Part shown: piece by piece, positions 23,898 to 25,570 of the stretch | Position numbering within the stretch: the stretch's first letter is position 1 | Layout of the letters: the number at the start of each line of letters is the position of its first letter | From: Muribaculaceae bacterium | GTDB lineage: Bacteria; Bacteroidota; Bacteroidia; Bacteroidales; Muribaculaceae | Assembly: GCA_023665425.1 (NCBI GenBank) | Contig: JAMPDX010000001.1 | Location: forward strand, 30,154 to 94,153 | Direction: 5' to 3' | DNA: 64,000 nt | Translations under genes and position numbers: made by a program | Notes under the pieces: model-generated | What the model was told of the DNA's origin: nothing | Database searches by the model: none | Seen by the model: the letters and a program-made list of their open reading frames with translations, nothing else

Positions 23898-24986
23898 ATG
23901 AGTAATATAGTGTCCATCAATGACTTAAGTAAGTCAGAAATTCTCGAGTTGCTTAATACAGCCTCTGAGTTTGAGGCTAATCCCAATCGTAAAATATTAG
24001 ACGGTAAGGTCATAGCTACGCTCTTCTTTGAGCCCTCAACTCGCACGCGTCTGAGCTTCGAGACCGCAGTCAACAGGCTTGGCGGACGTGTTATCGGTTT
24101 CTCTGACCCGGCAGCTACATCTACCTCCAAGGGGGAGACACTGAAAGACACCATTAAGATGGTAAGCAACTATGTGGATCTCATCATCATGAGGCATTAC
24201 CTTGAAGGGGCGGCACAACGCGCCATTGAAGTAACCGACACTCCGGTAATAAATGCCGGCGATGGGGCACATCAGCATCCCTCACAGACAATGCTCGACC
24301 TTTATTCCATCTATAAAACTCAAGGGCGCCTGGATGACATCACCGTCACTATGGTGGGTGACCTCAAATATGGTCGCACTGTGCATTCATTGCTGCAGGC
24401 TCTCAGCCATTTCCGCGTGAAGTTCAACTTTGTGGCATGCCCGGAGCTCAAGATGCCCGATGAGTTTATTGCCTTCTGCAAGGAGAAAAATATCCCCTTC
24501 ACCGAGACCGAAAGCTTCTCAGAGGAGATTATCAATAATACCGATATCCTATACATGACTCGTGTGCAGCGCGAGCGTTTTGCAGACCTTGATGAATATG
24601 AGCGCGTGAAGGACATTTACTCACTGACAGCCGATATGCTCAAGAATGCGCGCCCCGGTATGCGTGTGTTACATCCGCTTCCACGTGTCACTGAGATAGC
24701 CCAGGATGTAGACGATACCCCATATGCGTATTACTTCCAGCAAGCTAAGAATGGCTTGTATGCACGCCAGGCAATGATTTGCAAATGTCTCGGTATTGAC
24801 CCTAACGGCAACCCGCTCCCCGCCAATAATCAGGAGAATAAGAAGCTCGAGAGTGTGCCCCCCACCCACGAAGGACAGAAGTGCATCAACCCCAAATGTA
24901 TCACAAACAGTGACCCCATGCCACAGCGTTTCATTGAGGTGGATGGCAAACTGCGTTGTGCCTACTGCGAGCATGATTTAGACTGA
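23898..24986 (+). CDS. pyrB: aspartate carbamoyltransferase fused to the zinc domain of its regulatory chain
   Basis: First committed enzyme of pyrimidine synthesis (carbamoyl phosphate + aspartate to carbamoyl aspartate). 362 residues from the ATG at 23898 (a TTG two codons upstream is in frame). Residues 1 to about 306 are a complete catalytic chain: [44 protein letters not shown] and HPLPRV. A 20-residue linker follows (about 307-325), and the C-terminus (326-362) is the PyrI zinc domain with C329-x4-C334-x19-C354-x2-C357 in [12 protein letters not shown]...LRCAYCE. The PyrI nucleotide-binding domain (about 100 residues) is absent, and no separate pyrI follows: the next gene starts 17 bp later. 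Hence allosteric control by CTP/ATP through PyrI is probably lost. Confidence 0.93.
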
Positions 24987-25003: not shown

Positions 25004-25570
25004 ATGGCAAAAGTTATGTGGAAGCCGGGGACAATGATAAATCCTCTCCCGGCATTATTGGTGACATGCGGCAGCTCTCCCAAGGATTGGAATGTGCTCA
25101 CTGTAGCGTGGACAGGCACTATATGCACTGACCCGGCAATGTGTTACATCTCGGTGCGAAAGGAGCGCCACAGCTATGGCTTGATAGCAGAAAATATGGA
25201 GTTTACCATCAATCTTACCACCGAGGATATGGCACGCGCAACTGACTGGTGCGGTGTGAAAAGCGGGCGTGATGTCAATAAATTTGAAGCTACCGGCCTT
25301 ACACCTATCCCCGGCGAATTGGTCAGTTCTCCAACTATAGAGCAGAGCCCGCTGAGCATAGAGTGTGCTGTCACCGAAATCATGCATCTCGGCAGCCACG
25401 ATATGTTTATGGCAAAGGTGCTTGGAGTTCGAGCCGATGATAGATATATAGACCACTCAACCGGACGTTTTGACTTGGATAAGGCACGTATGATAGCCTA
25501 TTCGCATGGTCACTATTATGCTCTTGGTCAGCATCTTGGCCATTTCGGTTTCTCCGTCAGAAAGAAGTGA
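25004..25570 (+). CDS. flavin reductase family protein
   Basis: 188 residues of the FMN-binding split-barrel flavin reductase family (FlaRed type). Segments typical of the family: NVLTVAWTGTICTDPAMCYISVRKERHSYGLI (FMN phosphate region) and FTINLTTEDMARATDWCGVKSGRDVNKF. Reduces flavin with NAD(P)H or acts as a flavoprotein of unknown substrate. It lies 17 bp after pyrB; as I recall the same neighbourhood (pyrB-pyrI-flavin reductase) exists in Bacteroides. Confidence 0.85.
   Translation: MAKVMWKPGTMINPLPALLVTCGSSPKDWNVLTVAWTGTICTDPAMCYISVRKERHSYGLIAENMEFTINLTTEDMARATDWCGVKSGRDVNKFEATGLTPIPGELVSSPTIEQSPLSIECAVTEIMHLGSHDMFMAKVLGVRADDRYIDHSTGRFDLDKARMIAYSHGHYYALGQHLGHFGFSVRKK

Follow-up and report, generated by a model that had tools for sequence, protein, structure and literature searches.

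The gene at positions 23898..24986 (+ strand) of the window, by which we mean the whole 64,000-nucleotide stretch of Muribaculaceae DNA that was analysed, encodes the catalytic chain of aspartate carbamoyltransferase (ATCase), PyrB, joined to just the zinc domain of the regulatory chain, PyrI. Judging from its sequence, the protein, with a linker of about 28 residues between PyrB and the zinc domain, probably forms a catalytic trimer on which its own zinc domains are docked and which gives no response to CTP or ATP. The first-pass annotation had proposed a structurally stabilised, CTP/ATP-insensitive enzyme, a description that fits the anatomy predicted here. ATCase is a textbook allosteric enzyme, but the PyrI segment that touches the catalytic trimer is not easily studied in isolation from nucleotide sensing. 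The locus described below occurs in three states, in siblings with a full PyrI, in siblings with a tethered zinc domain, and in cousins with neither, so that what the zinc domain does by itself can be tested directly. The series also shows how an allosteric enzyme may shed its regulation step by step.

The gene is a single open frame from the ATG at 23898 to a stop codon ending at 24986 and encodes 362 amino acids. Its catalytic chain is complete, with a carbamoyl-phosphate domain (23904..24314, + strand; residues 3-139; PF02729, 160 bits) and an aspartate domain (24333..24782, + strand; residues 146-295; PF00185, 106 bits), and the protein scored 370.2 bits against the PyrB equivalog TIGR00670 (cut-off 236.95). 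The carbamoyl-phosphate domain likely holds the zinc-domain docking helix (E. coli c105-c120). The PyrI zinc domain occupies 24882..24983 (+ strand; residues 329-362), where PF02748 (PyrI_C) aligned to residues 328-360 with 41.5 bits (cut-off 23.4); with a PyrI-derived domain present, the protein is by content not of the bare-trimer type. The profile search found no PyrI nucleotide-binding domain (PF01948) in the protein, and the score for the full PyrB-PyrI fusion, PRK13376, was 131.8 bits (cut-off 800). The first-pass annotation had described a complete catalytic chain, zinc cysteines at Cys329, 334, 354, and 357, and a missing nucleotide-binding domain, all of which we recovered; its 20-residue linker had to be corrected. 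The catalytic chain ends in ..LGI, and a linker of 28 residues (24795..24881, + strand; residues 300-328) separates this end from Cys329; residue 305 of the E. coli enzyme aligns with residue 299 of the window protein. In a structure comparison of the catalytic part only, identity to the E. coli chains 3csu and 1i5o was 55-56%. An AlphaFold2 model had a mean pLDDT of 89.1 and a pTM of 0.88, with 78-86 by blocks in the zinc part; the model came without contacts or PAE, and docking is not visible in it. No Rfam family matched at gathering score within 4 kb of the gene. Nearby promoter-like patterns numbered 7 (3.2 ± 2.0 in shuffles), and terminator-like patterns numbered 3 (1.3 ± 1.3 in shuffles).

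The next gene after the fusion encodes a flavin reductase (25004..25570, + strand; PF01613) and marks an ancestral pyrB-pyrI-flavin reductase locus; as had been noted earlier, no pyrI stands there. Nor was one found elsewhere in the genome (2.17 Mb in 36 contigs, 97.6% complete). PF01948 had no match at E ≤ 1 in the whole genome, and the full PyrI of a same-genus relative, used as a query at E ≤ 10, matched solely the zinc domain of the window gene, so that the separate pyrI gene by which a c6r6 ATCase is recognised was not found in this genome. A frame of carbamoyl-phosphate synthase size (1118 amino acids) with an MGS regulatory domain is encoded. The first-pass annotation had named two refuters, a separate complete pyrI elsewhere in the genome and a frameshift or assembly error that removed the nucleotide-binding domain, and a draft of 36 contigs and 97.6% completeness leaves some room for them. 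However, the gene lies deep within a 1.01-Mb contig, and the same fused layout recurs in 17 other proteins of the window's PyrB lineage (G050, G106, and 15 database proteins) and in 82 same-genus genomes of a second lineage. An assembly error was rejected because independent genomes carry the identical layout, and with no PF01948 match to suggest a hidden pyrI, we regard an explanation of either kind as practically negligible.

The two lineages differ in sequence and in neighbourhood. In lineage A, that of the window, which includes the fused same-genus genomes G000, G050, and G106, the gene directly precedes a flavin-reductase gene. Twelve genomes of the genus have plain PyrBs, with which the window catalytic chain shares 76-84% identity. 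The fused proteins of lineage B are 41-48% identical to the window's, and their gene sits in a pyr gene cluster; in G054 the genes before the fusion encode an amidohydrolase, a PyrK-type protein, PyrD, PyrF, and a phosphoribosyltransferase.

We surveyed 111 same-genus genomes and found PyrI_C in 98 and PF01948 in 12; among the 46 with a completeness of 90% or more and a contamination of 5% or less, the counts were 45 and 7. Reading the genes placed the zinc domain inside the PyrB frame in 85 of the 98 genomes (including G068, whose PyrB start is cut by a contig end), whereas 12 had a plain pyrB with a separate full pyrI and one (G092) was too short for a layout call. The 13 genomes lacking PyrI_C comprised 11 without a match to the window protein (E ≤ 0.001) and two with pieces at contig ends. 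In a family survey of 397 genomes, the PyrI_C matches of other genera were all strong (E ≤ 1e-15), with the exception of G333, as is expected of complete separate pyrI genes. By these searches, the fused layout is a trait of the genus and not of the family. The C-terminal parts alone, used as queries of the protein collection, returned 4 and 6 proteins, too few to judge other phyla. Five genomes of genus g18 (L251-L255, 96-98% complete) had no PyrI_C, and their carbamoyltransferase matches were only 31-34% identical to the window PyrB, a possible loss of ATCase; other g18 genomes carry PyrI_C.

Conservation extends over both parts of the fused proteins. The 12 positions that we take to be the ATCase active site (S52, R54, T55, S80, K84, R105, H134, Q137, R167, R229, Q231, and L267) are all kept in the window protein and unchanged in all 18 lineage A and all 85 lineage B fused proteins. 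An alignment of the C-terminal cysteines in homologues, which the first-pass annotation had proposed as a check, found all four in 18 of 18 lineage A and 84 of 85 lineage B fused proteins, the remaining lineage B row having unread bases. In 267 lineage B pairs, the catalytic chain, linker, and zinc domain had pN/pS values of 0.057, 0.215, and 0.089, and between the window gene and G050 these were 0.05, 0.46, and 0.18, respectively (34 codons for the zinc domain); the values are rough, with synonymous substitutions close to saturated (pS 0.73-0.82) and pairs that are not independent. By this measure, purifying selection acts on the zinc domain, whereas the linker is fast evolving and little constrained. 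For the zinc side of the E. coli catalytic-regulatory interface, PMC6981877 names rAsn111, rAsn113, rGlu142, and rLys143. Lineage A fused proteins keep the equivalents of rAsn111 (present by eye in P0004), rTyr140, and rGlu142, the latter two in 18 of 18. They have Lys in place of rAsn113 and His or Gln in place of rLys143, as do all 12 plain siblings.

For the surface on which the zinc domain would dock, genus g23 of the same family offers a natural control. Its genomes L246-L249, four in all, lack PyrI_C, and a frame resembling flavin reductase (by eye) comes directly after their pyrB, which on sequence grounds is a complete loss of the regulatory chain; their PyrB proteins are 88-95% identical to each other, so that the loss of pyrI was probably one event. 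As a reference we used 78 PyrBs accompanied by PyrI, with L065 (which has pyrI) and L094 left out. Of the 162 catalytic columns conserved in this set, five (c108, c117, c131, c188, and c215) were changed in at least three of the four g23 proteins. Among the putative c-side docking positions listed beforehand, c109, c117, c130, and c131 are the conserved ones. Two of these four pre-listed positions (c117 and c131) were changed in g23 vs. three of the 158 other columns (Fisher p 0.0045), and the changed column c108 adjoins c109. At c117, the Glu is replaced by Thr or Gly in all four g23 proteins.

The window protein keeps both E109 and E117 of the putative docking helix. Position c117 is Glu in all 13 window-clade proteins and in the five other lineage A fused proteins, and c131 is unchanged throughout the window clade (13/13). 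Two neighbouring positions differ from the usual pattern, a point against docking. At c113, where Arg is the common residue (61 of the 68 plain PyrBs from other genera, 8 of 12 plain siblings), 11 of 13 window-clade proteins have Gln; the plain siblings G016 and G110 already have this Gln, so the change predates the fusion. Position c114, otherwise a conserved Tyr, is Arg in 13 of 13, a clade-specific change. On the zinc side, r139 is Ala in 11 of 13. The RY to QR replacement at c113-c114 and the Ala at r139 are possibly coupled changes, and the docking surface of the window clade looks retuned rather than abandoned. Lineage B has Glu at c117 in 17 of 85 proteins and, at c113, a residue other than Arg in all of the 83 (out of 85) that were listed. 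Docking in lineage B would thus need other contacts, and the predicted docking in cis rests on lineage A.

The plain siblings suggest how the fusion formed. The order pyrB-pyrI-flavin reductase was found in all three plain siblings examined, and the distance from the pyrB stop to the pyrI ATG is -1 to 56 bases in 12 of 12, so a single in-frame deletion of about 300 bases could produce the fusion. Such a deletion would begin at the 3' end of pyrB and extend over roughly the first 90-100 codons of pyrI. The reductive evolution from a pyrB-pyrI pair that had been suggested earlier fits the conserved synteny, these short gaps, and the trees. The joints differ among fused groups: G106, P0016, and P0029 retain the PyrI interdomain linker and C-terminal end, whereas the window clade is mostly without both (by eye), the last PyrI residues after the CxxC being gone.

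Phylogenetic trees point to separate origins within lineage A. In a 193-row tree of PyrB catalytic domains, the fused and plain lineage A proteins formed one clade with the fused rows scattered within it. That tree left out repeats of the same gene, L134 and L122 (cut at contig ends), L152 (44 amino acids, contig end), P0011 (360 amino acids, four Cys by eye, without a precomputed PF02748), and the long P0002, P0013, and P0015; L121 (G087), counted as plain in lineage B, is at a contig end and may be cut. A 42-row tree, with rows picked after the 193-row tree was seen and the fused label assigned by domain layout, gave five changes for 30 rows, plus 12 plain outgroup rows. On this tree, an AU test rejected a single clade of the 18 fused lineage A proteins (p 1.4e-6), and also one of a 15-row subset that was chosen after the first test (p 8.3e-5). 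In a tree of RpoB, an independent gene, G000 and G050 grouped with the plain G037, G016, and G110 (100/99) and G106 with the plain G004 and G075 (100/99); a single clade of the three fused genomes was rejected (p 5.6e-50). A single fusion clade in lineage A is thus rejected by the PyrB tests, and one for the three whole genomes by the RpoB test. The agreement of the two trees means that at least two fusions are supported by whole genomes, barring repeated regain of pyrI. By both trees, the fusions of the window and of G106 are separate events, and more such events are likely. Up to three further origins are represented by P0016, P0029, and P0100, each a single database cluster, with P0029 and P0100 on long branches. 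Because PyrB and RpoB group the same species, we do not favour gene transfer as the way in which the fusion spread through lineage A. In a separate RpoB test with 30 selected genomes, placing the 15 genomes with a lineage A PyrB as one clade gave p 0.105.

Since the trees count changes (the five for 30 rows) and not their direction, one could also imagine that lineage A fused once, early on, and that a complete separate pyrI was regained several times later. The lost domain could return only through gene transfer or recombination, yet PyrB and RpoB group the same species; moreover, the 12 outgroup rows are plain and the joints are not the same in all fused groups. We consider such a history very unlikely.

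For the function of the fused protein, we start from the E. coli enzyme, in which it is the nucleotide-binding domain that joins PyrI chains into dimers. Without this dimerising domain, the protein would neither build the c6r6 dodecamer nor be under nucleotide control. The zinc domain that was kept would dock in cis on the c109-c117 helix, the usual seat of the PyrI zinc domain, and would set the stability of the trimer and its substrate affinity. Feedback would shift to carbamoyl-phosphate synthase, for which the frame with an MGS domain is present, or to gene expression.

A simpler reading is that the zinc tail is a functionless relic of the pyrI deletion on an otherwise ordinary unregulated trimer. 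Unregulated trimers are a known natural type of ATCase (PMC4581275), the g23 relatives live without any PyrI, and both the loose constraint on the linker and the trimmed C-terminal end of the zinc domain are what a decaying remnant might look like. A relic, however, would not readily account for zinc cysteines retained almost without exception in both lineages, for a zinc-domain pN/pS (0.089) well below that of the linker (0.215), or for the retention of the domain after separate origins. Furthermore, E117 is kept in 18 of 18 fused proteins and lost in all four PyrI-less relatives. We therefore find a relic unlikely. The zinc domain might instead still couple two trimers, either by docking in trans or by recruiting a nucleotide-binding dimer of unrelated origin, and the resulting hexamer or dodecamer would keep some regulation. 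In favour of this, residues K164, Y165, D236, and E239, which take part in trimer-trimer contacts of the E. coli enzyme, are unchanged throughout the window clade (13/13), but they are also kept in the four PyrI-less g23 proteins and are thus uninformative on pairing. The genome has no PF01948, and the E. coli PyrI dimerises through the very domain that was lost. Coupling of this kind seems to us somewhat less likely still than a relic, and the trimer with zinc domains docked in cis is the reading that we prefer.

Known enzymes share parts of this arrangement. Like the E. coli c6r6 enzyme with its separate PyrB and PyrI, the window protein has the catalytic identity, the active-site positions, the four Cys, and the equivalents of rAsn111, rTyr140, and rGlu142, but its zinc domain is on the catalytic chain and the nucleotide-binding, dimerising domain of PyrI is absent. 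The full fusion of Thermotoga maritima (NCBIfam PRK13376) also has catalytic and regulatory parts on one chain; the window protein lacks the allosteric domain of about 95 residues, so that its joint falls at the zinc domain. With the unregulated trimers of the B. subtilis type it shares the lack of a nucleotide-binding chain and, by prediction, the trimer, but it bears a conserved zinc domain. The nearest relative comes from the Schachman laboratory, which reportedly combined the E. coli catalytic trimer with a separate zinc-domain peptide in the test tube. Both have a trimer and a zinc domain without the nucleotide-binding domain; one is a separate peptide in vitro, whereas the window version is natural, tethered, and inherited. 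The review PMC4581275 divides prokaryotic ATCases into three builds, namely those with dihydroorotase, those whose regulatory dimers are either separate or fused, and bare trimers; a trimer with a zinc domain alone is not among the three. Among the titles and abstract openings listed, none described a PyrB-zinc fusion, which is weak evidence of novelty as subscription journals were mostly uncovered. The fusion is a variant of a known enzyme, with the PyrB-zinc layout being the new part. Going further, we give an even chance to the proposal that it represents a fourth natural bacterial ATCase build, in which each trimer tethers three zinc domains of its own and which would have been selected repeatedly in one genus, the zinc domain being kept for a stability or activity job of its own and nucleotide sensing being dropped.

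Lineage B has relatives beyond the genus. Full-length fusions resembling it were found in at least three genomes of another Bacteroidales family (G525, G608, and G673; 392 genomes searched), and in G531 (family f2) a plain relative of lineage B occurs with a separate two-domain PyrI. The lineage B pyr cluster looks horizontally acquired and may have replaced native genes, and the lineage has what we take to be a Clostridia-like look. The pyr cluster of L204, L206, and L212, all of lineage B, is partly common to L193 and L194 of another Bacteroidales family. A lone lineage B fusion (L250) was seen in G333, of genus g4 in the same family; it is 62% identical to that of G046 and stands before an IMP-dehydrogenase-like frame (by eye). 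The database PyrB-like proteins P0002, P0013, and P0015, of 424-529 amino acids, look from their sequences as if part of the catalytic chain had been duplicated internally.
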